Virus record (IMG/VR): IMGVR_UViG_3300045777_000191
Span: 1-32,466 of that record
Source: a virus
Strand: one strand, 5' to 3'
Length of the DNA: 32,466 nucleotides
A program made the position numbers and the translations under genes. Positions 4,075 to 31,534 of this stretch are shown piece by piece. The first letter of the stretch is position 1. Each line of letters begins with the position of its first letter. Below the pieces are notes generated by a model. That model worked only from the letters and a program-made list of their open reading frames with translations, made no database searches and was not told the origin of the DNA.

Positions 4075-5649
4075 TTATTCGTCTTGGTTGATTTTTAATA
4101 TATATTTAAGGGCTTTTTCGGCTTTATTGGAATCACCGTATTTTTTTTGTAGTATGGGTAATAAATATTTTTTCTTCTGCTCTAGGTTATAATGCTCGTC
4201 CTCCATGTGTTGTGTTAAGACCTCAACTTGCGAATCATTTATACCAGGAATGTATTTATATTTCTGGTATTGATCTATCTGTTCGTTTGTAATTCCTTTA
4301 TCGCCTTTTTCCATATCTAAAATGATATTAAATCGAGCGTTTAATCGGTCTTTATCGGATTTAGGAATCGTTTCTGATTTTCCTCCAAATAAACCACTGC
4401 CTTGTTGTTTAAAAGTATAGCTTTTTCCATTATCCACCATAGTTATTTTATGAGCGGCTGCTATTTCACTAACTTCTTTAATAGTTTTTGGATCTTGAAC
4501 ATCCGTTAGTTTTCGCAAGGTTTGAATCCGGGTATCAATCCTAGGATCGTTTAATTCCTCCTTATGATCGTTTCTATATTTTGCCTCAGTTAAATTGTTT
4601 CTAAGCGATAACGTATGGTTCTGAATGCTTAAATCATACGGATTTGCTTTTATGGTTCCGGAGTTAGCATCAATGGTACTTTGTGCTAAATTGGCTGCAC
4701 CTTTCGATATAATTAATTGCTTTCTAGCAAAATCCCTTACTTTTTGAATTATATTGGGATCATTTGTATTAAACTGTTCTGCAATTTTTGGTTCTTTTAG
4801 TATTTCTTTGGCAAAATTATCAACATCGACTGAATTGTTAGGGTCCAAAAACTGAATTCCTTTTTCCGGATCATTATAATAAAAGAAATTGCCAGGAATC
4901 CCGGGTTGTAAGCCTTGCTGGTGAAGTCCTTTCATGATTACCGGATCATTGAAACCGAAAGCAATAATGGCATTAACCCGAGGCATACTTGGAACATATC
5001 GAAAAAACCCATCCGCTCCTTTAACAGGCACTCGCTCAACTTTATCCAAACCTATTTTTTTATATTCTCCTATTAAATTTACTTTTTCTTCTGGTAAATT
5101 GTCTTTCAATTGTTTTAGGTCTATTTCATCCAGTTTTTTTTGATTTCCTTTATCATCTAAAAAAAAATTATTGTACTTTTCGTAGGAATCGGGAGTAAAA
5201 TTATCAACCCCACCTTTTTTTTCAATTAGAGCGTTCAGGTTATCTTCTATTCTACCTATTTCATTGGCTTTTGATAAATGGCCATAAAATCGGTTGGTAC
5301 GATCAATAAAATCCGGATCATTGGTCATTGGATTCTTGTTCGTTTTGGCAAATTGTATAGCCGCATCCTTTAATAATTGATCCTTTTCATCATTGACTTC
5401 ATTTTGAAAACGAGAAGGCGATTTTAAAGGCTGTATTCTCTCTAAAGTTTTTGCGTAATCCGACCTTTGAAAATTGTTATCATTTCGGTTAAGTTCATTT
5501 TGTTTATCTATATACTCTTGCCTTTTTAATAGTTGAGTATTAATATTATTCGCTTCTCCTGTGGTTGAAAAAGGATTATACTCTTGGGCTCCGGCCTGAC
5601 CTATTCCGTATTGAGGAACGGGGTTTGTAAAAGGAATCGGTTCAGGCAT
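4075..5649 (-). CDS. Putative internal virion / ejection protein (524 aa)
   Basis: A 524-residue, hydrophilic, Asn/Lys/Asp-rich protein predicted by eye to be mostly helical, with no transmembrane segment. It starts MPEPIPFTNP after a 4-base gap and ends one base before the giant protein gene. It lies between a small Ala/Gly/Gln-rich protein and the giant zincin protein. This small-medium-giant trio after the tail genes resembles the order of T7 gp14-gp15-gp16 or P22 gp7-gp20-gp16. I recognise no catalytic motif. The assignment as a DNA-ejection component rests on position and composition only. A T9 run at about 5159-5167 is in frame here, which shows that long homopolymers are not always broken in this assembly. 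Confidence 0.6.
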   Translation of the reverse strand: MPEPIPFTNPVPQYGIGQAGAQEYNPFSTTGEANNINTQLLKRQEYIDKQNELNRNDNNFQRSDYAKTLERIQPLKSPSRFQNEVNDEKDQLLKDAAIQFAKTNKNPMTNDPDFIDRTNRFYGHLSKANEIGRIEDNLNALIEKKGGVDNFTPDSYEKYNNFFLDDKGNQKKLDEIDLKQLKDNLPEEKVNLIGEYKKIGLDKVERVPVKGADGFFRYVPSMPRVNAIIAFGFNDPVIMKGLHQQGLQPGIPGNFFYYNDPEKGIQFLDPNNSVDVDNFAKEILKEPKIAEQFNTNDPNIIQKVRDFARKQLIISKGAANLAQSTIDANSGTIKANPYDLSIQNHTLSLRNNLTEAKYRNDHKEELNDPRIDTRIQTLRKLTDVQDPKTIKEVSEIAAAHKITMVDNGKSYTFKQQGSGLFGGKSETIPKSDKDRLNARFNIILDMEKGDKGITNEQIDQYQKYKYIPGINDSQVEVLTQHMEDEHYNLEQKKKYLLPILQKKYGDSNKAEKALKYILKINQDE

Positions 5650-7324: not shown

Positions 7325-10300
7325 TTACATTCCTATAGGGCAAGTTGTCGTGTTTACATAAGGAGCAATATAATTGGGATTTCCAACAACATTCGGAACG
7401 GACGTACCGGTAAGTACTCCGGATCCCGAAAAATTCTGTAACAAATTTAAAATAATTAATTTACCATCGTTTACCAGGGAATTCGGATATGGTAATTGAG
7501 AAGTTGTTCCGGAATCATAATTGACAATATAAATACCTGGAATGGACGAATTATAATCCAATGAAATAGGAGCCGAAGAGGCATTTCCTATGGTAAAGGT
7601 GTTATTTGTGGTATTGACTACAAAAATACTGGACCCGGTTCGAGAGCATACATATAAAGCGGAAATGGCCGGTATATAAATAGCATCGCCACAAACACTA
7701 GGGAAGCTGATATTGGCCAATATCGTATTAAAAGTAGAAACATTGCCCGGATTGGTATCAATAATAAATACTTTTTGAGTGGTTCCACATGGAACATATA
7801 ATTTTCTACTGGACGCAATCCAAGCCATTCTACGAGAAGTATCGCTCGAATTACTGGGAAGTTGTAAGGTATTATAATTAAACAAATCCCCTTGATGAAC
7901 GGTGTAAACACGTATGGGTGAATTGGCTCCTACATTAGAATCTGAAAAATATAAATCTCCTGAAACGGTATCTTCAGCTACATACGTAGGTCGTACAATG
8001 GTGTTGGTTAATTCGTTAGCGCTGGTATCAGAAATAATAATCGTTTTTATTAAAGTACCCGTAGGACTAAACACTTTTACAGGGCAAGTTCCTGATGTTT
8101 TGCCCGCTACTGTGCTAGACAAGCTAAATAAAGGAACGACAAATCCTCCTTGGATGGATGAATAAATAAAGGATAATGGGCCCGTTCCTCCACCAGATGT
8201 ACCTAAAGTAGATTGATTTACGATATTAAAAATGGCATAGGTATTAATATCTATCGTAAAAATACCTTGATTTTGATCAAGCAAATAAATGATTCCAGAT
8301 ACAAATAATAAAGCCCTGGGCAATCCTCCTCCTGCTCCTGGAACGGTAATCGTGGCTAAAATAGTATTAAAAGTAGGATTAGCCGGATTGGAATCAATAA
8401 CCGATACCGTTCCTGATCCATAATTGGCGACAAAGGTTTTATTAATAGACGAAATACATATTATACTATATGGATTCGAAAACCCGGAAATAGTGGCTCC
8501 TATGTTTAGCGTTTTTTCGCAAATGGCCGTTCCAGTATCGGCTACATATCCATAGCTTTGACTGTAAAGACTTACAGAAATAGCCTCTCCTGCTGTAATA
8601 GTGGCTGTAAAAGTAAGAGTTTGGTTCCCAGATGTGGCCGGGGTAATATTTTGAATCGATCCTCCATTGACGCTAACCCCTTGACCGGAAGCTTTAGGAA
8701 GGGTAACATTCATAGAAGCCGAAGATCCAACGGTAAGAGGCGTTGAAAAGGAGCCCGTACCGGCATTATTATTAGGAACGGTAAAACTTCCCGATCCTAA
8801 AGTTATTACAGCCCCTTGTAGATTAGCCTGGTAGGTTACAGCTATAACAAAGGTGGTTCCTACCGGACAAATATTAATATCGTAAAATGGGGCTATATAA
8901 TCTGGATTAGGGTTTCCAGAAATAGTAGGCGTATTAGCCTTGGTTTGACCCGTAGCCGTGGCCGAACTGATATTTCCTCCGGTGATGGTATCTATATAAT
9001 ACTGCTCTAAATTGGCAAAAACAACAAATCCCGTTTGATTTCCTGACCCATCTACGGGGCAAGATTGACCCGTTCCTCTCCATCCTGTGGGCCGGGTTGG
9101 AGAGATGACATTAATGCATTCATTAACGGCTGGAAGTTGAATTCCTGCTGGTGTTTTTGCCGTATAGCTAAAACTATCGGGACCCGAATACCCGGCATTG
9201 GGCGTATAGGTAACATTACCCGTGGAATCAATCGCTGAAAGAGTTCCATGAGTAGGCGGCGTAATAATTTGAAAAGTTGTAGAATCAATTTGATTTTGAT
9301 TGTTTGTTTGCCATGCATTTCCATTAAAAACATCGGTATAAATGGCGTTGGAGGTGTTTTGAAAAGCTAAAATATATTCTTCATTTTTGCGGTCGTAAAC
9401 ACCAAAAATTCTTCCTCCTGAATTGGCATAATAGGTTAATAAATTCCGAAAGAATTTATCCATTTTATACTTTGTAGAAATAGGAATCAGTCCATCTAAA
9501 CTTAACCGAAGAATGGCACCGGCATTGGCTGAGGCAAAATAAATTTGAAGTCCATTTTCAGCAAAAGATTCTGGATTGTTGCCTATACCCCCTTTAAAAG
9601 TATAATAATGTAATTGGTTTTCAAAAATATTATTAGAGGTTAATAATTGGGATGAATCATCTGCTAATTTTACTTGTACTTTAAATACATTGGTAAATCC
9701 CGTTATCAGTTGCTTTAAAATATACAGTTTAGAATCTCGGTAATACATTCGCATAATGGCTCCGTAGGAATCCGAATAATCAATGAAATTGGAATACAAA
9801 AATTGATTAATCCCATTGATATTACTTCCTGGAATAAAGCTTAAACTATATCGAATTCTTTCTGGAAAATAACTTTCCGCCGCCAAAGGGCTTTCCGCTT
9901 CAGGCCTTCCATTATCATTAAAAGCGGATGGGTAGAAATCGGAAAAATTATAATCTTCAACTGGTCCTATATTACTGGTAACGCCTGGGTAAGCATTGAC
10001 TTTGGGCATCTCCCTTAATCTGGCATAGGTGTCTCCGTTTGAAATATTAAAGAGGGCCGGTTGAATGGCCGTTTGATTTTGCGCTTGACCATTATGATAA
10101 GCAGTGGGCAGTCCCGGATTTTGAATATCATACTTTTGACCAAACTCAAAATAAACTTGCGATCCTTGAATTCCTGTATTTTTTCCTGGGGTAAAAAGTT
10201 CAACCAGTGCAAAAACGGGAAGAGCACCGGTAGATAAACCTGGTAAATTTGGAAAATACGGATTTTTAACCCGAATAATTAATCGGTCGTCGATAAAAGT

Positions 10301-12517
10301 GTAAGTATGAATGGTACTGAGATCATTAATCGGTTGATCTATTTGGTAATGGGTTGAATCTTGAATTCCGGTAATTCTTCTTTGAACAGGAATATTGGCA
10401 GAAGTTACTAAATTAATTAGCATACCAATTTTACTTGCATCAGTTGAAACTACGGATAGGGTGGTATTGCCCGAACCCTGTAAAACAGCATCGGTATTAA
10501 TTTGATATTGCGTATTATATCGCATCTCAACCACTTCTACTTCATTAAAATTGGAAGAAGAATTGGAAATAAAAATTTGTTGCGCATTGGAGTTGTCTAA
10601 ATAATATAAAAAACGACAACGATCCCCTGGATTAAAGGTATAGGCTATAATATTCTCTGGGTAAATTTTATGATAAATATTAATACCCTGCATGACCAAA
10701 TCTAAAAAATCGTTTCTTCCATTATTAGCGACCAAGTTGATAGCCTGGGTATAAAATTGAGTAAAAGTGGCAAAATTTAAATTTTGTGTTCTTACAATTT
10801 GAAATCGAACGGCATACGGTGGGGGCGTATGAGAAATACTAAGTTGATGACTGGCCCATTGAATAGACCCCAATTCCATAAAACTTTTGGAATATATTTT
10901 CCAAGACGAATTCGTAAATACTTGCGTTTTTCTTCCTTCAAAATCTTCATAAATAATTCCATATTGGACGATAGAACCCGATTTATTTACTTTTTGAGTT
11001 AAATTAGAAAGGCTTATAGATGTATAATACGTCGATATAACGGTTAATTCTAAATTAGGAATATTATTTCGGGCAAAACTTTTATATACATTAAAAGTTA
11101 CTACGGAGCCTGATTGAGTAGGCGTATTTCCTGGATAATCTAAATCGAACGCTTTTTTTTCAGCATCCCCGACAATTTGGAAACTTAATTCAAAAAAATA
11201 ATTGGCTACATCTAATGGTTTTGTATAGGGGGTTACGGTATAAATCCATTGTTCTGTTTCGTTGGCTATGCTATACAAAGTAAAAACCATTCCTGTCGCC
11301 AATGGGTTATTGGTAAAATCGATTGAAAATTGCCACCGGTTTAAATTATAATTACCTTGAATAGCACCACTTCTTGATTGAAAGGTGATGGGAGGATTGC
11401 TTAAAATGGGTGTAGTCGATCCAGAAAAATCAATCGCCGCATAGCTTATAACGGATCCAACTTGTATAATGAGGTTATTAAATCCTTCTTTAAAGCCCGT
11501 ATAGGCCATGATTTTGTTGTTTACCAATTCCTGAGCAAAGGGATTGGCTGGTAAATAGCTATAGGGTTGAATTAATAAAGAAACATCAACCGTATTGTAT
11601 TCTCCGTCATTGTAAAAATTAAGGGTGTAGTTGCTATTATTTCCTAAACTTAGGGTGTTTTTATTTATATTTTGAACTAAAACCCAATTTAATCCGTCTA
11701 TTTGGGCGACAATATTAATTTGGCTAACATTTTCAAAGCCTGTATTAATAATGATGGCTATAAAATTATTATTTTGATTGAGGCTAAAACTAGCCGTTTG
11801 AGAGTTGGCATTTAATAAAGAGCCATTATAGGGTTCATTTACCGGATTGGGTAAAATACTAAAATCGCTATAGGTACTCTGCTCGTTGTCGTCGTAAATA
11901 TATTGATAGGCGAATTTAAAAGTATGTCTATATAGGTTGTTGTTTTGGCGCGTTAGATCATTTCCATAGGAACAAGTGGGTGCATAATACGGAGCCCTTT
12001 TATAGGCATTTATAATATCCAGGCTAATGTCCGCATAACTGCCATCCCTTATTTTGGTTATATTAATTTTTCGAGCTGGGTTAATCCCTTGGTCTACCCA
12101 ATACAATAAATCGTTATTAATTAATACGGGATTTAAAATAAGACCCTGCAGAGAGAATTGGAAAATATCTACGCCTCCCGTATCGGTAATGGATTGGATT
12201 ATTTTTTCTATATACTCACCAATAATATTAAAAGATAAAATGGTATGATAACCACTAGAATTGTAAATCCAATAAATAATTTGAAATCCTACTTCATCGG
12301 CAAGGCTACCAATAACTACATTTTTTCCAGGGGGTAAAGAAAAGGGAATTAAAGTATTGCCCATAATATTTTTAATACCTAAAACATCTCCGGAACCGGT
12401 AGAATTGTTTCGAATATTTAAGGCATATAAATAATCAAAAGGGGAAATAGATTCAACCTGTGTGTCGGTATCCATTCCCCCTTTAAAATCATTTTGGGCT
12501 ATTAATTTAGTATTCAT
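7325..12517 (-). CDS. Giant tail nozzle/stabilisation protein with Ig-like and beta-propeller receptor-binding region (1730 aa)
   Basis: The N-terminus (MNTKLIAQNDFKGGMDTD) and residues to about 1045, including FKFAYQYIYDDNEQSTYSDF and FGVYDRKNEEYILAFQ, follow the pattern of P22 gp10-like stabilisation proteins (crAss-phage muzzle type). About residues 1080-1120 form an Ig-like or cadherin-like repeat (VTYTPNAGYSGPDSFSYT). A short Cys-containing module follows (NPDYIAPFYDINICPVG, about 1195-1215). About 1345-1690 read as a YVTN-type beta-propeller (FVANYGSGTVSVID; FNTILATITVP recurring as FNTILANISFP). The end repeats the Cys module start (NPNYIAPYVNTTTCPIGM) and stops. The start overlaps the 89-residue gene by 11 bases. 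Likely role: distal tail tube plus host recognition. The domain boundaries are my reading of the sequence, not a search. Confidence 0.7.
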   Translation of the reverse strand: MNTKLIAQNDFKGGMDTDTQVESISPFDYLYALNIRNNSTGSGDVLGIKNIMGNTLIPFSLPPGKNVVIGSLADEVGFQIIYWIYNSSGYHTILSFNIIGEYIEKIIQSITDTGGVDIFQFSLQGLILNPVLINNDLLYWVDQGINPARKINITKIRDGSYADISLDIINAYKRAPYYAPTCSYGNDLTRQNNNLYRHTFKFAYQYIYDDNEQSTYSDFSILPNPVNEPYNGSLLNANSQTASFSLNQNNNFIAIIINTGFENVSQINIVAQIDGLNWVLVQNINKNTLSLGNNSNYTLNFYNDGEYNTVDVSLLIQPYSYLPANPFAQELVNNKIMAYTGFKEGFNNLIIQVGSVISYAAIDFSGSTTPILSNPPITFQSRSGAIQGNYNLNRWQFSIDFTNNPLATGMVFTLYSIANETEQWIYTVTPYTKPLDVANYFFELSFQIVGDAEKKAFDLDYPGNTPTQSGSVVTFNVYKSFARNNIPNLELTVISTYYTSISLSNLTQKVNKSGSIVQYGIIYEDFEGRKTQVFTNSSWKIYSKSFMELGSIQWASHQLSISHTPPPYAVRFQIVRTQNLNFATFTQFYTQAINLVANNGRNDFLDLVMQGINIYHKIYPENIIAYTFNPGDRCRFLYYLDNSNAQQIFISNSSSNFNEVEVVEMRYNTQYQINTDAVLQGSGNTTLSVVSTDASKIGMLINLVTSANIPVQRRITGIQDSTHYQIDQPINDLSTIHTYTFIDDRLIIRVKNPYFPNLPGLSTGALPVFALVELFTPGKNTGIQGSQVYFEFGQKYDIQNPGLPTAYHNGQAQNQTAIQPALFNISNGDTYARLREMPKVNAYPGVTSNIGPVEDYNFSDFYPSAFNDNGRPEAESPLAAESYFPERIRYSLSFIPGSNINGINQFLYSNFIDYSDSYGAIMRMYYRDSKLYILKQLITGFTNVFKVQVKLADDSSQLLTSNNIFENQLHYYTFKGGIGNNPESFAENGLQIYFASANAGAILRLSLDGLIPISTKYKMDKFFRNLLTYYANSGGRIFGVYDRKNEEYILAFQNTSNAIYTDVFNGNAWQTNNQNQIDSTTFQIITPPTHGTLSAIDSTGNVTYTPNAGYSGPDSFSYTAKTPAGIQLPAVNECINVISPTRPTGWRGTGQSCPVDGSGNQTGFVVFANLEQYYIDTITGGNISSATATGQTKANTPTISGNPNPDYIAPFYDINICPVGTTFVIAVTYQANLQGAVITLGSGSFTVPNNNAGTGSFSTPLTVGSSASMNVTLPKASGQGVSVNGGSIQNITPATSGNQTLTFTATITAGEAISVSLYSQSYGYVADTGTAICEKTLNIGATISGFSNPYSIICISSINKTFVANYGSGTVSVIDSNPANPTFNTILATITVPGAGGGLPRALLFVSGIIYLLDQNQGIFTIDINTYAIFNIVNQSTLGTSGGGTGPLSFIYSSIQGGFVVPLFSLSSTVAGKTSGTCPVKVFSPTGTLIKTIIISDTSANELTNTIVRPTYVAEDTVSGDLYFSDSNVGANSPIRVYTVHQGDLFNYNTLQLPSNSSDTSRRMAWIASSRKLYVPCGTTQKVFIIDTNPGNVSTFNTILANISFPSVCGDAIYIPAISALYVCSRTGSSIFVVNTTNNTFTIGNASSAPISLDYNSSIPGIYIVNYDSGTTSQLPYPNSLVNDGKLIILNLLQNFSGSGVLTGTSVPNVVGNPNYIAPYVNTTTCPIGM

Positions 12518-21632: not shown

Positions 21633-23759
21633 TTACATAATTTCATCAATTTCATACATCTTAAAAATAGGATTTAATTCTGCTTTTACATCGGCATGTC
21701 TTTCAATCATATAATTGCCCCAACTGGCAATTTTTGTCCATCCATAGGCAACGCCCAAATCCCTAAACTTTCGATTGCTTTTATTCATTTTAAGCAAATC
21801 TAGGACCACTCTTTTGTGTTTTAAACAATTATAATATCTTTCTATGTAAACAGCCAAGGTTTCAAAATATTGATTAATCGTTTCCTCTGTTGCTGGTGCT
21901 CCAGGTTCTTTTTGGTTGGCAGAATAGGCCGTTCGGGTTGCTTTTGGACGATCCATTAAATAAAGGCTATATCCTCGGTTAATAAAATACTGGCGAATAG
22001 CACTTTTGTTGTTTTCATAAAGAAGTTTACAGCCAAAATAAAAAGCGGTCATTAAAGCATCTTCATAAAAAAGTTCAATATTTTGAGGACGAAAAACATA
22101 ATCAATGACGCATTGGTTGGTCATCATGTTGGCCCCTCCATCTTCGGCCACCCCTTCTAAATCATAAGTAATATCTTTGTCTATTTGACTATCAAATAAA
22201 ATATCCACGGCAAAAGCACCATCCGATCTTTGTTCGTGCGGTGAATCGCTTTGCCCATACGGATCCAAACCCATTCTAAAATAAGCATTATTTCCAGGAG
22301 CCCGTAAATTATACAAACCATCTCCATACACTTCAAAATGGTTCTTTTTAAATCGATTGGGGACGTCTTGACTGATTTCCCACCGGCCATCATGAACATA
22401 GACAATTTCGACTTCGGTATCTCGAACATTATTTTTCCACTGTAAATTACATCTTCTGGTAAAAGGCTTTTCAATACTTTCGGCATAGGTAATTCTTTCC
22501 AAGGCTTCAGATAATTTTTCGGCATTAAAAGCCGATTTGTCGCCACCTGGGGTTAAAGCATCTTCAATATCTCGAGGTTGTTTTCTCCGGATAGCCGCTA
22601 TTTGCCGAATTTTATTATGCTTACGAAGGGCATCGATCATGTTTTCCATGAACCGTAAACTTTCTTCGGCATTAGAAAAGCCCCATTCATCAAAAGATGA
22701 GGAGTTTTGGTAACCAATAAAGGATCGAATCAGTCCATTCAGCGTTCTTCCGTTGGCATCCAAATCATTTGGATTGGCTTCATCCCATAGGGTTCGGCAA
22801 ATAACCAGGGTTCCTTCTTCTCCTTCGGCAATTTCCTCAACCGAACTTTCAAAAATAGCTTTGCCCGTAATTTTTTTACCCATATCCGCTTCCATACAGG
22901 GGCGTACAACCTCCCAGCATTTAATGGGGTCCATTTTGGCTTTTTGCTCGATTTTACCAAATTCATTTAGCGTGTACCGGGCCAAGGTTTCTCCGTCATA
23001 GGCCGTCGATACGCTAGAAGCATAAGAAATAGTTGAGGATAATTCTTCGTAAGCATAGTCTAAATCGCCATCATTGGTATCTTGTTCAACCGTTTTTTTG
23101 GTGATCATGGTCTCCGGATAGGAAAAATCGAGCCCCCCAGAAGCAATAGTAGAACCTCGGCTGATGGGTTTAAAATACCAAATCATCCGTTTGTTTATTT
23201 TTACGATCTTTTTATAATTATTTTCAGCCGAAACTTCGCTTTTGGATTGCATACCGGCTTGTATGCCCCGGGTTCGAGATACTTTTTCCCATAATAAAAA
23301 GTTGGTAATGGCCGTTAATCCTACCCTTCTCGGTTTAAATATAATCATCCCATATTTATTGGGGTCCCGAACAACGGCGTTCCATAAAATAAAAACTTGG
23401 CACTGAACATATCGAAATTCGGGCCATATTCCCCCAGGCAAACGGTTTTCGTTGAGAAAAACATAATAGGGACCGGTTATATAAATCGGAATTTCTTTAA
23501 TGATCACCCATAGACCGTGCTCCCTTATATGCCATTCGGATTCAATAAAATCATTTTCTTCGGGAGAAAGCTTGTTTTTCTTTCTTAAAACGCTTTTAGG
23601 CTTTACTGTTCGAGTAAATTTTTGCTTTTTAATGGGTGCTCCATAATTGATCATTTCCGTTCTAGGCGGCTGGCAAGGCACGGGTATAGGCACCTCGCAT
23701 ATCTCCAACTTTACATAGGTTGGCTTTGAATAATCCGCTATGTATAATTTTTTGGCCAT
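21633..23759 (-). CDS. terL: Terminase large subunit (708 aa)
   Basis: DNA-packaging motor with ATPase and nuclease halves. The ATPase starts at about residue 85. The Walker A-like segment is KPRRVGLT (142-149), where the usual lysine before T/S is leucine. The Walker B-like segment is YTLNEFGK (262-269), with Asn-Glu in place of Asp-Glu. IFESSVEEI (302-310) fits the coupling motif. The nuclease (RNase H-like fold) shows MGLDPYG (D499) and SDGAFAVDILF (D514/D519), with further acidic candidates near residues 577-582 and at D667. The 708 residues exceed the usual 450-600 but fit crAss-like and related phages. It starts in a TAATG overlap with the 182-residue gene and is followed by the portal. 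Confidence 0.9.
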   Translation of the reverse strand: MAKKLYIADYSKPTYVKLEICEVPIPVPCQPPRTEMINYGAPIKKQKFTRTVKPKSVLRKKNKLSPEENDFIESEWHIREHGLWVIIKEIPIYITGPYYVFLNENRLPGGIWPEFRYVQCQVFILWNAVVRDPNKYGMIIFKPRRVGLTAITNFLLWEKVSRTRGIQAGMQSKSEVSAENNYKKIVKINKRMIWYFKPISRGSTIASGGLDFSYPETMITKKTVEQDTNDGDLDYAYEELSSTISYASSVSTAYDGETLARYTLNEFGKIEQKAKMDPIKCWEVVRPCMEADMGKKITGKAIFESSVEEIAEGEEGTLVICRTLWDEANPNDLDANGRTLNGLIRSFIGYQNSSSFDEWGFSNAEESLRFMENMIDALRKHNKIRQIAAIRRKQPRDIEDALTPGGDKSAFNAEKLSEALERITYAESIEKPFTRRCNLQWKNNVRDTEVEIVYVHDGRWEISQDVPNRFKKNHFEVYGDGLYNLRAPGNNAYFRMGLDPYGQSDSPHEQRSDGAFAVDILFDSQIDKDITYDLEGVAEDGGANMMTNQCVIDYVFRPQNIELFYEDALMTAFYFGCKLLYENNKSAIRQYFINRGYSLYLMDRPKATRTAYSANQKEPGAPATEETINQYFETLAVYIERYYNCLKHKRVVLDLLKMNKSNRKFRDLGVAYGWTKIASWGNYMIERHADVKAELNPIFKMYEIDEIM

Positions 23760-25970: not shown

Positions 25971-26177
25971 TTAATCTTTAAATTGATCTATAGCTTTTTT
26001 GGTTTTTTCTTCCATTTCTTGTAAAGAGTGCATCATTTCTTGTAACTTTTCAAAGTCTTTCTCCGTACGAGAAAAATTCATTCTGCGGATGGCATGAATA
26101 TATCCCAAACGGTAGGGAACATAAATCACAATCGGCAACGCCATTCCAATAGCTAAGTACGTTAATTCTGGATTCAT
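25971..26177 (-). CDS. Small membrane protein with coiled coil (68 aa)
   Basis: The start chosen is ATG 26177, which overlaps the nuclease stop as ATGA; a TTG 18 bases upstream is less likely. Residues about 5-24 (YLAIGMALPIVIYVPYRLGY) form one transmembrane segment. The rest is a charged helix with heptad pattern (FEKLQEMMHSLQEMEEKTKK). A single-span protein with a cytoplasmic coiled coil could anchor a complex or act in lysis as a spanin- or holin-like protein, but nothing specific supports either. Last gene of the helicase cassette. Confidence 0.6.
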   Translation of the reverse strand: MNPELTYLAIGMALPIVIYVPYRLGYIHAIRRMNFSRTEKDFEKLQEMMHSLQEMEEKTKKAIDQFKD

Positions 26178-26416
26178 TTTGATTTTTGGTCGCAAGTGGC
26201 ATCAAAGCCCAGGTCAGTAAGTCGTTTTAACATTATTTTTTGGTCCGGTCGCAATCGATCATTTACCTCTTTAGATTCGACGAATTTTACATTGGGCCCG
26301 GGCTTTACCGCTAACAGATCCATAATCCCCGTATGGTTGGTACGAATCAAGTTGATCACAAAGAAGCCTTCTGCTTCCAGTTTTTTTTTAATTTTTTCTT
26401 TATACGGTGATCCCAT
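26174..26416 (-). CDS. VRR-NUC type nuclease (80 aa)
   Basis: PD-(D/E)xK nuclease of the VRR-NUC class, probably a structure-specific or junction nuclease in phage replication and recombination. The start chosen is ATG 26416 (MGSPYKEKIKKKLEAEG), overlapping the upstream gene by 17 bases; the longer reading runs over that gene. Core: GIMDLLAVKPGPNVKFVESK, with the catalytic Asp in 'G-x-x-DLLAV' and the E-x-K in 'FVESK', then RLRPDQKIMLKRLTDLGF, the family's typical '(L/S)xxQ' helix. At 80 residues it is a stand-alone minimal domain. VRR-NUC genes often sit next to SNF2-type helicases in phages, as here. Confidence 0.8.
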   Translation of the reverse strand: MGSPYKEKIKKKLEAEGFFVINLIRTNHTGIMDLLAVKPGPNVKFVESKEVNDRLRPDQKIMLKRLTDLGFDATCDQKSK

Positions 26417-26696
26417 TTTGTTTTTTAAAAATTGAATCGTTATGATCATGAATAGGACAATCATAATTATGAGTGGGCATAACTGGGGTTGTACTGCCAG
26501 GTATATACGGTATATTTTGCTTCATCTGTAAAATTCTCCATTCGTGGAACAAATGAAGCTCTTCTTTTACCTTATATTCAGCCCAAGTTCGGATTTCATG
26601 CTTGATCGTCATTTTCCGAACCTCACTCTTCTCCATGGTAAGTTTTTCTTCCAGGTCGGTAATTCTTGCTTCTATGTATTGGATTTTGTTCATCAT
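26400..26696 (-). CDS. Coiled-coil protein with CPIHDHND motif (98 aa or 78 aa)
   Basis: N-terminal helix with heptads (IQYIEARITDLEEKLTMEKS), a helix around EYKVKEELHLFHEW, then a short Pro-rich tail with HNYDCPIHDHND, a Cys/His cluster that could bind metal. The long start at 26696 overlaps the helicase gene by 74 bases; an internal ATG at 26636 would overlap it by only 14. The heptad pattern before that ATG favours the long form, but I cannot decide. It lies between helicase and nuclease genes, so it may be their accessory factor. Confidence 0.55.
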   Translation of the reverse strand: MMNKIQYIEARITDLEEKLTMEKSEVRKMTIKHEIRTWAEYKVKEELHLFHEWRILQMKQNIPYIPGSTTPVMPTHNYDCPIHDHNDSIFKKQNGITV

Positions 26697-28068
26697 AATC
26701 TTTTAAAAATAATCGGGTGGTATAACTCATTTTGTCGGTAACCGATTGATAGATATATCGCTCTATACCGCCTGTGCGAAAGATAAAATATATTTTTGAA
26801 TTTAAAGAATCGGAAGTGGTCATTCGATCCCGGCTTTGTAAATACACTAAAGCAGAAAAGTCGATATTATAATACACTAGGCAGTCGGCTTTCCGTAAAG
26901 ATATTCCTTGGCTTCCGGACTTTAGTTGTAAAGCCATCCACATTTTGGGATCGTTATTAAACGTCTCTAAGTCATTCGTAATTCTTCCTTTGAAATAACT
27001 AAAGAGTAAATTATACTCCGCCTGATATTTATAAAAAATAGCAATTTTTTTTTCACTAAACCGTTCTTCTATCTTTTTGGCTTTATCCAAATTAAAAATA
27101 AAAGGAAAGTTTCGAACAACCCCATTTCGCACCTGGTCCACAATGACCGTTCCCGAAGATACCTGATGAATTTTCATCAATCGCAAAGCCGGTGTAGTTC
27201 CGATAATTTGCGCATCTATTCCATGCTGATCCACATTCAAATTATACTCGTGCTCCGTTTTTAAAGCCATTATGATTTCTTGGGTCTGATCATCCATGGG
27301 TACGGAAATAATCTCCTCATCAATAATATTTTTAAAGCCGGCTTGGTTTTGGGAATAGTTTAGGCAATAGGGCTCAATCTCTTTCCGGATTTTCTCCTCG
27401 CTATCCTGGCATATTTTTATCAATAGCATCTCCTCATACTCCTTCTCCTCTTTACTCATGCGCCTTTGATGGATAATCCATTTTTTAATCTCGGCCGGCG
27501 TATTTTTATAGTTCCACATTTGCCCGTATCCAAAGTCCACTTCCAACTTAACACATCCCATTTGCTTAAACCATTTATAAAAGTCGGTCCGGGCCCAGGG
27601 GTGAAACCGGCAAATCGAAAAGGCATGGAAAATTTGACTGATGCTCTCCGGGTGAGGCGTGCCACTTAGAAAAATAACGGGCTTATTGCCATAAACAATT
27701 TTATACAATTGGGCCAATTTGTTTGGCTTTGGAAAAGAACCTAAGACGTGGGCTTCGTCCATAATAATAATCTCGGGTTCTTTGCCAGAGGTGGCTTGCT
27801 GTTGAAGCTGCTCATGGTTAATGACCTTTAGAGAAAAAAAATAATTATACTGAAAGTCCTCGTAGTCCTGATAAATATTTTTAATGGCTTTTTTCTTCGT
27901 AACAAACAGGACCTGTTTGTACTTCATCTTTTTGCAAATCTCCATGGATACGGCGGTCTTGCCCGTGCGCACCTGCATCATTAAATACAAGACATGGTAT
28001 TGCGACAAAATTTCTACCCCTTTTTTAGAAAGCTCATACTGATAGTCTCGTAAAAATTTTGTTTCCAT
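26623..28068 (-). CDS. SNF2/DEAH-type superfamily 2 helicase (481 aa)
   Basis: ATP-driven DNA translocase. Motifs in order: an N-terminal RDYQYE segment (Q-like), Walker A MMQVRTGKTAVSME (about residues 30-43), LFVTKKKAIKNIY (motif Ia), IIIMDEAHVLG (motif II, DEAH), IFLSGTPHPES (motif III), and in the second RecA domain LQLKSGSQGISLRKADCLVY (motif V) and YLQSRDRMTT (motif VI). The size is that of a minimal phage SNF2-like helicase. First gene of a minus-strand cassette with VRR-NUC, directly behind a strong Bacteroidota promoter. The ATG is only 4 bases past the -7 box, so the message is probably leaderless. Confidence 0.85.
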   Translation of the reverse strand: METKFLRDYQYELSKKGVEILSQYHVLYLMMQVRTGKTAVSMEICKKMKYKQVLFVTKKKAIKNIYQDYEDFQYNYFFSLKVINHEQLQQQATSGKEPEIIIMDEAHVLGSFPKPNKLAQLYKIVYGNKPVIFLSGTPHPESISQIFHAFSICRFHPWARTDFYKWFKQMGCVKLEVDFGYGQMWNYKNTPAEIKKWIIHQRRMSKEEKEYEEMLLIKICQDSEEKIRKEIEPYCLNYSQNQAGFKNIIDEEIISVPMDDQTQEIIMALKTEHEYNLNVDQHGIDAQIIGTTPALRLMKIHQVSSGTVIVDQVRNGVVRNFPFIFNLDKAKKIEERFSEKKIAIFYKYQAEYNLLFSYFKGRITNDLETFNNDPKMWMALQLKSGSQGISLRKADCLVYYNIDFSALVYLQSRDRMTTSDSLNSKIYFIFRTGGIERYIYQSVTDKMSYTTRLFLKDYDEQNPIHRSKNYRPGRKTYHGEE

Positions 28069-28112: not shown

Positions 28113-28295
28113 ATGATTTCGAAGCCTGTTCAAATTAGAATCCCTTTTAAACTATACGAATGTGTTCTGGATGAGATAGATAGATCTCTTGATCCAACTT
28201 TAGATGTTAGCAAAATTATTAATGATTCGCTCATCAAAAGATACACAAGAAAGAAAAGAAAAGATACCGGAATCTCTACAAAGCGCGCAAAATGA
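28113..28295 (+). CDS. Ribbon-helix-helix (Arc/MetJ-like) regulator (60 aa)
   Basis: MISKPVQIRIPFKLYECVLD reads as the RHH beta strand (QIRIPFKLYE) leading into helix A, then DVSKIINDSLIKRY as helix B ('S-x-x-I-x-x-x-L'). The basic tail (TRKKRKDTGISTKRAK) could add DNA contacts. At 60 residues it is a full minimal RHH protein, active as a dimer. It is ATGA-coupled to the primase gene and faces the helicase gene across 44 bases holding a palindrome, so it may repress both arms. Family called by pattern. Confidence 0.65.
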   Translation: MISKPVQIRIPFKLYECVLDEIDRSLDPTLDVSKIINDSLIKRYTRKKRKDTGISTKRAK

Positions 28296-30334
28296 AGGTA
28301 TCCGAATTCAAAAATACCTCCTTTAAAAAGCCGGTAAAAAATATAGACTTTTCCGAGTTTTTAGACCTGTTGGCCCGTAACAATTTTGCTTTAGAAATTC
28401 AAGAAGCCCAGCAAACAGGAGATGTGTCTAAACTCTTAACCAAAGTGCCGGCCTTTTCTCTCTGTGGCACCTTTTCATTTCTTCGCTTTGGGGACCAGAT
28501 TCAACATTCGGGGCTTCTGTCCATAAAGACAACCCATCCCATAAAGCCCATAAAGTCCACGAATATAAAAAACGACCCCTACCTGTATTGTTCTTTTAAG
28601 GGGATCGACGGACAAATGGTGTATGTTTTTAAAATTAATCCTCACCTGCATTATTCTTCCTACCAAGGATTAAAAAAATATTTATCGGAAACCTATAAAG
28701 CCTCCTTTTCGCCGGATCAGGGAGCCTCCATCCTTTTAACTCCCCTTTCTTACGACGATAATTACCTTTTAAACGAACGAGCCGTTGTTTTTGACCGGGT
28801 TCTGCCCTCACCTCCACTTACCATTTTGCCCCCCAACAAAAAAAAGGATATTGACAGGCTCGTTCATTTAGTCCAGGAAAAAAAAGTGGACCTCACCATC
28901 GACTTTAGCAACTGGATGAAAATCGCCTATGGACTAGCCTCTGAACTAGGATCTGAAGGAGAACCGTACTTTCTCGGATTTAGCCAATTTAAGCCCTCCT
29001 ACAATGAGATCCAAGTGTCGGAGATATACAACATCGTCCTTGCGGACGTTATGAGCCCAGGCTTCATAAAAACCACGTCTCGCGCCGTTATAACTTTAGC
29101 CAAGACGTTCGGAATAACGGTGCCCAAAGAAAAAATAGAAATTGAAGGGGTAGAAGGGGTAGAGGAAATGACCCATCCCGAAATTATTTATGAAGTCTTA
29201 AAACGAAAATATAAAATCCGGTATAACCTCCTCACCGACGCCCCCGAAATTGATGGCCGCCGAGTCGATAAACGAACCATCAACGACCTCTGGTTTTATG
29301 TCCTCGATAAAATTCGGCCTCAGCAAATTCGCAAAGATGAAGTCGAAGCCGTCATCAACTCTCGCCTATGGCCCGAATTCCACCCCATTCGGGAATGGTT
29401 TGAAAAAAATGAACCCTGGGATGAAAAAGATCGTATGACCGACTTAGCCTCCGTTTTAAACTTAACCGAACCGGAAAAAGTAGACTTTGCCAAAGAATTT
29501 ATTTTTAAATGGATGATCGGCGTGGTAAACTGTCTATACGGTAAGCCCAATCCGCTTATCCTTCTTATCGTATCCCCACAAGTGGGCATTGGCAAGACCG
29601 AATTCTTCCGCCGCCTCCTACCCCATGAACTGGACCCCTATTGGGGTGAAGCCGAGCTCGATAACAAAGATATTTATAACACCATGAGCCAAAACTTAAT
29701 CGTTTATAATGATGAATTCTCCGCTAGCACCAAATTAGAAGTCGAAGTTTTGCGCAAATTGACCTCCTCTCGGATTTTCTCCGTTACCAAAAAATACCAA
29801 GCAGAACAGTCTCAAATCCCTCGCATCGCCTCCCTCTGCGGATCATGTAACCATACCGAAGTCATTAAAGATACCGTCGATAACCGGCGATACCTCGTCA
29901 TTGAGCCCCCTCCCAAACGGTTTAATTTTGAAATCTATAATAAAATCGACAAAAAACAACTGTGGGCCCAAGCCTATAACTACTACCAGGAAGGGGTCCC
30001 CTTCGAATTTTTAGATGATGATGTTGAACGGCTCAATCATTATTCTGAAGAATTTAAATCCCGATCCAAAGAAATTCAATTTATCGTTCGATTTTTTGAA
30101 CCCTATAACCCCATCTATACTCCCCATACCGAAGAACTCACTCCAGCCGATATAACTTCCTATATCCAAAATCAAACGGGAGATAAAAATCTTTCCTATC
30201 TCGAAGTGGGAAGGGCCCTGAAAACCCTGGGATACGTCAAAAAACGAATTCAGAAGGGAAATGTGCGTTTAGCCTATTATCCCATCATAAAAAAGGGAAC
30301 ACAAGAACCGAAAAATACATCCTTTTGGGGCTAA
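28292..30334 (+). CDS. VirE/BT4734-type primase-helicase (680 aa)
   Basis: Putative replication initiation protein. Residues about 1-165 match the BT4734-like N-terminal domain (VPAFSLCGTF, HSGLLSIKT, HLHYSSYQGLKKYLSE). About 200-250 match PriCT-2 (DFSNWMKIAYGLASELGSEG; FSQFKPSYNEIQVSEIYNIV). About 370-600 are the VirE P-loop ATPase: Walker A PQVGIGKT (429-436), Walker B LIVYNDEF (469-476), and DTVDNRRYLVIE with the likely arginine finger. In BT4734 proteins 'HTGLxxxDID' carries acidic residues; here it reads HSGLLSIKT, so the N-terminal active site may be degenerate. C-ending codons and local GC are higher than in the flanking genes. Directly upstream of the repeat cluster at 30387-30763. 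Confidence 0.8.
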   Translation: MKVSEFKNTSFKKPVKNIDFSEFLDLLARNNFALEIQEAQQTGDVSKLLTKVPAFSLCGTFSFLRFGDQIQHSGLLSIKTTHPIKPIKSTNIKNDPYLYCSFKGIDGQMVYVFKINPHLHYSSYQGLKKYLSETYKASFSPDQGASILLTPLSYDDNYLLNERAVVFDRVLPSPPLTILPPNKKKDIDRLVHLVQEKKVDLTIDFSNWMKIAYGLASELGSEGEPYFLGFSQFKPSYNEIQVSEIYNIVLADVMSPGFIKTTSRAVITLAKTFGITVPKEKIEIEGVEGVEEMTHPEIIYEVLKRKYKIRYNLLTDAPEIDGRRVDKRTINDLWFYVLDKIRPQQIRKDEVEAVINSRLWPEFHPIREWFEKNEPWDEKDRMTDLASVLNLTEPEKVDFAKEFIFKWMIGVVNCLYGKPNPLILLIVSPQVGIGKTEFFRRLLPHELDPYWGEAELDNKDIYNTMSQNLIVYNDEFSASTKLEVEVLRKLTSSRIFSVTKKYQAEQSQIPRIASLCGSCNHTEVIKDTVDNRRYLVIEPPPKRFNFEIYNKIDKKQLWAQAYNYYQEGVPFEFLDDDVERLNHYSEEFKSRSKEIQFIVRFFEPYNPIYTPHTEELTPADITSYIQNQTGDKNLSYLEVGRALKTLGYVKKRIQKGNVRLAYYPIIKKGTQEPKNTSFWG

Positions 30335-30335
30335 A

Positions 30336-30351
30336 ATAGACCTTTGTCTAT
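30336..30351 (+). terminator. Weak hairpin just after the primase gene
   Basis: ATAGAC (30336-30341) pairs with GTCTAT (30346-30351) across a 4-base loop. A T6 run follows only 12 bases later, so it is a weak terminator at best. It may be the first structured element of the repeat region. Confidence 0.3.
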
Positions 30352-30386
30352 GCCATTTAGCCCTTTTTTGAACCACCATAAACCAT

Positions 30387-30763
30387 ACTATACCACTGCC
30401 AACCGCCTTAACGTGCCCAAAAACCCATAAAATCATAGTGGTATAGAGTGGTATAGTATATATATAAAGAGTTATATATAATACAGTAAGACTATAGCAC
30501 TATACTACCTTTACATAATATATATTTCCTTATATAGAAACTTTTGTGCATTCCGCTATACCACCTATGCCACTATGCCACTTCCAAAAAAAACATCGAT
30601 TCCAGCTAGTAGAGGCACTTTTTTGACCCAAAAAATGTGGTATAGTGGTTTTTTGGCACTATGCCACCTCTTTTTCACTATGCCACATTTTGGCTTTTTG
30701 TATATTATTTAGTACACTTTTACGTGCCACCCTAAATTATTCTAGTGGCATAGCACTATGGCA
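30387..30763. repeat. Cluster of about 12 CACTATRCCAC repeats in both orientations; candidate replication origin
   Basis: Copies (consensus CACTATRCCAC, reverse GTGGYATAGTG): forward at 30387-30397, 30498-30509, 30555-30564, 30565-30573, 30572-30581, 30657-30667, 30676-30686; reverse at 30437-30446, 30447-30457, 30637-30648, 30744-30753; and a variant CACTATGGCA at 30754-30763. Several form tandem blocks of 8-10 base period, others face each other (30637-30668, 30744-30763). The left copies mostly carry TATACC and the right ones TATGCC. There is no open reading frame. The place right after the primase-helicase and the AT-rich core suggest iterons, bound by an initiator such as the VirE-type protein or the winged-helix protein. 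Confidence 0.7.
30455..30540. other. AT-rich tract inside the repeat cluster (possible unwinding element)
   Basis: Runs such as GTATAGTATATATATAAAG and TTATATATAATAC, and ACATAATATATATTTCC, make this the most AT-rich part of the gene-free region. It is flanked by repeats on both sides. Easy melting beside initiator sites is typical of replication origins. The role is inferred. Confidence 0.4.
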
Positions 30764-30830
30764 TTTTTATGAAAATATGGAACCAAAAAAAAATTAACCC
30801 CCTTCGTCAGCGCGCCTTATATATGATCTT

Positions 30831-30885: not shown

Positions 30886-31030
30886 CAAAAGAATTCCTAT
30901 CCAAAAAGGTATCTAATTCGTAAATCTTCTGGCGAAAAGCTATTTTTAAGGCAGATTATTGACCTCCAAAAATCGAGGGTTAAAAATCAACTTTATAAGT
31001 ATCTGATAATTAACATATTAATTAAACAAA

Positions 31031-31051
31031 TTGGTTGTATGTAATAACCAA
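31031..31051. promoter_or_regulatory. Inverted repeat upstream of the winged-helix gene
   Basis: TTGGTT (31031-31036) and AACCAA (31046-31051) are perfect 6-base arms 9 bases apart, 16 bases before the ATG at 31068. It could be an operator for the winged-helix protein encoded next, or an RNA hairpin in its leader. A reading starting at TTG 31035 would lie inside this element and is not favoured. Confidence 0.4.
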
Positions 31052-31067
31052 TACAGTTTTTAAAGCA

Positions 31068-31534
31068 ATGCAGGAAAAGAGCAAAAGGAACGCATCCGGG
31101 ATACAAAAAATAACCGCAAGGGGCCCCATAGATAAAATAAATAACTATTCAGGATCATTATTGATGGCTTCAATAGTTGTGCGAAGAATATTAAATGATC
31201 CTTGGGAAAATCACTGCATTAAAATTTATGCGTTGTTAGATTATTTGGCCAGGAATAGGGAAAATGTAGTGGATATTAGGGAAATATCTAATATCCTTAT
31301 GATTCCCCATAAGTACGAAAACATTATGAAATGGCTTTATCCATTAAAAAAAAAGGCTTAATCCAGGCTGAAGCCAGAATGAAATACGTTCCCAGATTTC
31401 ATAAATGCATTCCTATACTACATTATAAGATTACAGGAAAGGGGATTTCTACGGTGGAAGAAATAAGCCGATTAATGAAATTGTACGAAAATGATCCGAT
31501 AGAATTTGAAAAGGAACTATCCAGATTAAAATAA
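31068..31534 (+). CDS. Winged-helix DNA-binding protein split by a -1 frameshift at an A9 run (about 155 aa joined)
   Basis: Frame 1 starts at ATG 31068 (MQEKSKRNASGIQKITARG) and ends at TAA 31361, just after the A9 run 31346-31354. The -1 frame continues to 31534. Joined, the protein reads IYALLDYLARNRENVVDIRE, then ISNILMIPHKYENIMKWLYP, LKKKGLIQAEAR, and HYKITGKGISTVEEI. That is a complete winged-helix layout: helices, recognition helix, 'LxKKGLI' strand and 'YKIT-x-KG' wing. Neither part alone holds the full domain. The run contains A AAA AAG in phase, the classic -1 slippery heptamer. It is either programmed slippage or a lost A. Possible replication initiator or regulator. Confidence 0.6.
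31346..31354 (+). other. A9 run with A AAA AAG slippery heptamer
   Basis: Zero-frame codons are TTA AAA AAA AAG GCT TAA, so the heptamer A AAA AAG is in the phase required for -1 slippage, and the zero frame stops two codons later. GGCTT right after the run can pair with AAGCC about 11 bases downstream, but this hairpin is too close and too weak to be a convincing stimulator. Confidence 0.5.

Follow-up and report, generated by a model that had tools for sequence, protein, structure and literature searches.

The closest described counterparts of the locus reported here are the rep-ori regions of SaPIs and PICIs. In SaPIs, the origin is found immediately downstream of rep, with iterons that are recognised by the C-terminal domain of Rep (PMC7581432), and PICI origins always comprise two sets of iterons placed around an A+T-rich region (PMC6092414). 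Segments carrying rep and ori replicate plasmids autonomously, as reported for SaPI and for an E. coli PICI (PMC6092414). This origin organisation was held in a 2018 paper to be unique to PICIs. In SCCmec, the iterons downstream of the gene for Cch2 are bound by this protein and by its C-terminal domain (PMC7581432). Finally, a 2018 primase survey described the VirE ATPase as experimentally uncharacterised and guessed at winged-helix origin recognition for related primases (PMC5862659).

Here, we analysed the viral record IMGVR_UViG_3300045777_000191 over its full length of 32,466 bases (the window), a contig with an overall A+T content of 63 %. The record is linear and end repeats are absent, suggesting that it is probably a fragment of a larger genome. 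It returned its own matches to a large terminase, a portal and a virion protein, all of them on the minus strand, and so does not show the dependence on a helper for virion proteins that characterises a satellite. The structural-gene region also encodes a minus-strand protein of 1730 residues (7325–12517) with a bacterial Ig-like domain (PF17963). Towards the other end of the record, ORFs 31035–31361 and 31331–31534, which overlap at a poly-A stretch close to 31347, resemble a single small gene split by a frameshift, which may be real or an assembly error. The replication module comprises a VRR-NUC nuclease (26174–26464, minus strand; PF08774, 7.3e-8), an SNF2/DEAD-type helicase (26623–28068, minus strand; PF04851, 1.1e-7; phrog_62, 8.1e-38) and a VapE-type primase-helicase of 680 residues (28292–30334, plus strand). 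The SNF2/DEAD-type gene is inverted here; in several relatives, a helicase gene comes after VapE.

The VapE-type protein, which we propose as an origin-binding, self-loading initiator, matches the VapE-like helicase family (PF05272, E value 4.5e-28) with a score of 98.6 bits, above the curated cut-off of 25, and has a weak PriCT_2 match. It also aligns with the SaPI vapE chain 7pds_A, both by sequence (E value 2.8e-11) and by profile (E value 3.7e-18). Residues 285–673 of an AlphaFold2 model of the protein (mean pLDDT 81.6, pTM 0.51) superpose on the DNA-bound SaPI-type helicase PriRep1 (7pds; Z 25.0, rmsd 5.0, 368 aligned), a structure deposited as similar to D. nodosus vapE, and the model returned a Z of 13.9 against the SaPI5 primase-helicase 7ola. 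The N-terminal part aligns with phage primase-helicases bearing BT4734-like and PriCT-2 domains. At the C-terminus, the model places a winged-helix-like domain (residues ~593–667, encoded at 30068–30292 on the plus strand) of helix-helix-strand-strand order with a block pLDDT of ~80–89, and the PriRep1 alignment reaches residue 673; this domain is the proposed iteron reader. When folded alone from its single sequence, the domain gave a poor model, which was left out of the results.

A hairpin followed by a T run lies at the VapE stop codon (30327–30364, plus strand; −17 kcal/mol, z −3.6, no shuffle equally stable) and is probably the transcription terminator of the gene. Beyond it, the first exact iteron starts 54 bases past the stop codon. 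The nonamer CTATRCCAC occurs exactly ten times in the whole record, six times on the plus and four times on the minus strand, and all ten copies fall inside 30388–30753, the stretch that we propose as a replication origin. When one mismatch was allowed, 13 of the 23 copies in the record fell in 30335–30800, while the eleven-base form CACTATRCCAC with at most one mismatch gave nine matches, every one of them in the cluster (shuffled sequence: mean 0.14, maximum 2). The motif read backwards, used as a control pattern, had no match in a search of the whole record.

The copies are arranged as two arrays that face each other. The left array consists of two minus-strand copies of CTATACCAC at a spacing of 10 bases (30438–30446 and 30448–30456), and the right array of three plus-strand copies, namely CTATACCAC (30556–30564), CTATGCCAC at a spacing of 9 bases (30565–30573) and a further CTATGCCAC at a spacing of 8 bases, which shares one base with the previous copy (30573–30581). 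Further copies are scattered on both sides of the arrays: CTATACCAC at 30388–30396 (plus strand) and 30637–30645 (minus strand), and CTATGCCAC at 30659–30667 and 30678–30686 (both plus strand) and 30745–30753 (minus strand). The gap of ~100 bases between the arrays (30457–30555) is the proposed melting site; its A+T content is 76 % vs 63 % in the record, and it holds two degenerate iteron copies at 30492 and 30500.

An earlier, sequence-only reading of this DNA had already noticed much of the above. Its iteron-like cluster in both orientations right after a VirE-type (VapE) protein was recovered, the expected confinement of the motif held in the search of the whole record, and its AT-rich core corresponds to the gap between the exact arrays. 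Other parts of that reading stood only in part. Its figure of about 12 copies is correct if near-copies are counted and too high for exact copies. The switch that it described from TATACC to TATGCC can be followed from the copies at 30388, 30438, 30448 and 30556, which read TATACC, to those at 30565, 30573, 30659, 30678 and 30745, which read TATGCC, but the copy at 30637 reverts to TATACC. As for its flanking hairpins, the one at the VapE stop is real, whereas the remaining 'hairpins' are inverted iteron pairs.

Cumulative GC skew, one of the checks named with that reading, gave a signal: the minimum of the record falls at 30,929, beside the cluster, although this is weak evidence because only 1.5 kb of sequence lies to the right. 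The VapE gene has a skew of −0.157 vs +0.145 to +0.200 for the ORFs right of the cluster, all of them on the plus strand, and these opposite skews fit forks leaving the cluster both ways, with the same 1.5 kb limit to the right.

The decisive addition was that the same layout, which the sequence-only reading had suggested seeking in relatives, recurs behind the VapE-type helicase genes of many unrelated phages. In an initial set of 25 annotated phages and satellites, the top 7-mer cluster (within 5 kb) lay between −50 and +600 bases from the VapE stop in 19, where 2.0 were expected. The limits of this zone were set with the first 17 loci already in view, so the prospective test consists only of a later 124-locus survey and its controls. 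For this survey, 128 loci were retrieved with two VapE alignments, of which 124 were usable, and clusters were scored with a simple Poisson model. The strongest short-repeat cluster fell in the zone in 84/124 viral loci (~11.8 expected), as did 65 of the 71 strong clusters. Dereplication at 95, 70 and 50 % identity left 63/92, 42/66 and 28/47 loci in the zone, vs 8.6, 6.1 and 4.4 expected, respectively. Stretches of 300 bases scored below 1e-7 in 36 % of cases post-VapE, vs 1 % in the remaining ORF-free gaps and 0 % within the VapE gene itself. The layout was also present, by the same method, in the Streptococcus satellite phage Javan339, a PICI-like positive control. About one-third of the VapE loci had no such cluster by the method used, and none was returned for Nonlabens phage P12024S and Cellulophaga phage phi46:1, known relatives of the window protein.

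Some of the surveyed loci carried repeats or annotations in other positions. The APSE-2 record has an annotated putative origin upstream of VapE (2071–2171) and a nine-copy GTAACAA iteron cluster after VapE (4633–4931), and in L228 the iteron cluster (4581–4878) lies within the 3′ end of the VapE gene, not after it. Burkholderia phage Mica possesses seven copies of GGTGACA 2.9 kb past VapE (9169–9362 of its locus) and also encodes a ParB-like protein; these repeats may be a partition site. The heptamer GCGCGTA was ~3.6 times denser in the post-VapE 600 bases of many loci than elsewhere; it was dropped as a candidate recurring element, as its enrichment, seen overall, does not extend to A+T-rich loci.

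Across phages, the iteron letters vary while the layout stays. The gap 3′ of VapE holds repeats of TAGACAACC in Yersinia phage YeP5, TGTGACAAC in Corynebacterium phage IME1320_01, TGTCCCAC in Pseudomonas phage Haddon, ATGCAACA in Staphylococcus phage phiSP15-1 and TACAACCGA in Dulem virus 37, and others likewise carry repeats with different letters. For 42 of the 49 distinct motifs, the iterons on either side of the largest gap point in opposite directions (same direction in five), and for 40 of the 49 the A+T content of this gap exceeds that of the locus. Tandem iterons are most commonly spaced at 9 bases, followed by 8 or 10. Among 57 dereplicated loci, the median iteron similarity rose from 0.39, where the similarity of the VapE C-terminal domains was below 0.10, to 0.88, where it exceeded 0.65. 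This link is weak and can hardly be told apart from that to the helicase core (partial correlation 0.10 given the core, Mantel p 0.001; 0.06 for the core); it is consistent with, but not proof of, the C-terminal domain reading the DNA.

Closer relatives were also sought. Peptide scans for close relatives of the window's VapE and terminase found none, and neither did a search of genome contigs with alignment A1. Viral contigs were also scanned for pairs of neighbouring motif copies; of the matches listed, those read were predominantly coding repeats, but one of the listed records, L125, displayed a non-coding, mixed-orientation cluster beside a 719-residue ORF that encodes a PF05272 protein (E value 5.7e-64), and it was the only one of 50 scan records checked with PF05272. 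This 719-residue protein is too distant to be found with the window protein by tblastn. Two triple-motif scans added only L118, in which the repeats are largely coding, and L282, and other carriers of the same iteron letters may exist beyond the matches listed. We rejected CTATACCAC, which is common to the window and L125, as a conserved motif, given that the C-terminal domains are dissimilar and relatives use other letters, and treat the match as chance or convergence.

Taken together, the confinement of the motif, the skew minimum beside it and the same layout behind VapE in many phages support the candidate-origin reading. We consider it highly probable (roughly 0.85) that the post-VapE region with its iterons (30388–30753) is the replication origin of the phage, where the VapE-type protein binds the iterons and starts forks. 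The cluster and its confinement, the inverted arrays with their A+T core, the family-wide link between the layout and VapE and the SaPI Rep homology with a winged-helix-like C-terminus were computed directly. By analogy with relatives, the C-terminal winged-helix domain of the VapE-type protein would bind the CTATRCCAC iterons, and the protein would assemble into helicase rings on the two opposed arrays and melt the A+T-rich core between them. It would then start replication forks, and priming, too, would proceed as in those relatives.

Repeats of this kind could also be operator sites, through which a phage regulator (the Arc-like product of 28113–28295 or that of the split ORFs 31035–31534) would control the downstream gene. 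The cluster does precede the next plus-strand ORFs, and the flanking small ORFs may encode DNA-binding proteins; however, the layout trails VapE in phages with quite different downstream genes, ten sites across 370 bases round an A+T core would be unusual for an operator, and promoter-like sites show no clear excess (6 vs 3.9 expected). We regard this explanation as improbable, but some of the iterons may well serve as both operator and origin sites. It is very improbable that the repeats mark a packaging (pac/cos) or partition site or are intergenic repeats with no function. Such sites are also marked by repeat clusters, but no result here pointed to one; the large terminase gene (21633–23759) lies 6.6 kb from the iterons, and clusters of this kind go with the VapE gene and seldom occur in the remaining ORF-free gaps.

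Even if the region is an origin, its iterons might be bound by another protein, either host DnaA or a small phage protein in the manner of lambda O, with VapE only the recruited helicase. Lambda-type phages keep initiator and helicase separate, and the weak correlation of iterons with the VapE C-terminal domain leaves room for such a binder. The iterons of SaPI Rep and of Cch2, however, are bound by these proteins themselves (PMC7581432), and the change of iteron letters from phage to phage is ill-suited to a conserved host protein. Another binder is unlikely, marginally more so than the operator. The sequence-only reading had put forward both the 680-residue protein and a winged-helix protein as binders; of the two, the former is the likely binder, as no gene other than VapE is shared by every locus.

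With the VapE-type protein as initiator, the locus suggests a simple rule: in the hundreds of phages where the gene is labelled only as 'virulence-associated protein E', the replication origin should be sought directly 3′ of it. It also argues that phage VapE/VirE proteins are replication initiators and not virulence factors, as which some surveys still list them (PMC6507118, PMC2605562), and the many iteron/protein pairs lend themselves to deciphering the recognition code of the C-terminal domain. On a broader reading, towards which we lean, a large class of tailed phages that use VapE-type initiators, spread over phages of Bacteroidota, Proteobacteria, Firmicutes and Actinobacteria, has the PICI format as its general origin. 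The layout would be fixed while the iteron letters change fast, and iteron specificity may then be a means by which satellites and phages compete or exchange modules.

Several described systems share parts of this arrangement. SCCmec Cch2 is, like the window protein, a helicase-initiator with iterons directly downstream of its own gene, which its C-terminal domain binds (PMC7581432), and its iteron strand TACCACTT resembles TATACCACT of the window, a likeness that may be chance. Cch2 differs in having just three iterons of 5 bases (AAGTG) within 23 bases and another helicase annotation, of Primase_Cterm/D5 type. At ori-lambda and in iteron plasmids, the iterons similarly sit beside an A+T-rich melting site; lambda O and the iteron-plasmid initiators are not themselves helicases and are not known to be related to VapE. 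The lambda origin lies within gene O (PMC6022878), whereas the window iterons lie after the VapE gene, and a Pfam search of the proteins adjacent to the cluster gave no O-like domain. The P4 alpha protein, as described, likewise fuses initiating helicase and primase in a single protein (PMC7145576).

The SaPI/PICI rep-ori remains the nearest match. It shares with the window the same helicase family (fold Z 25 to PriRep1, 7pds), a cluster immediately 3′ of the helicase gene, for which an origin role in the window is proposed by analogy, and two iteron sets around an A+T-rich region (PMC6092414). The sequence-only reading did not know the repeat from any described origin; the iteron sequence itself was indeed not found described in open PubMed Central papers, but the layout is known from the SaPI/PICI format (PMC6092414, PMC7581432). 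The window differs in being no satellite but a phage that has genes for a terminase, a portal and a virion protein, and its VapE-type protein differs in the N-terminal part that aligns with BT4734-like/PriCT-2 phage primase-helicases. Earlier descriptions may exist beyond open PubMed Central papers. The survey of VapE loci runs counter to the 2018 view of uniqueness to PICIs; this is a known origin type found here in a full tailed phage, and in every feature testable by sequence the window fits the SaPI/PICI origin format.
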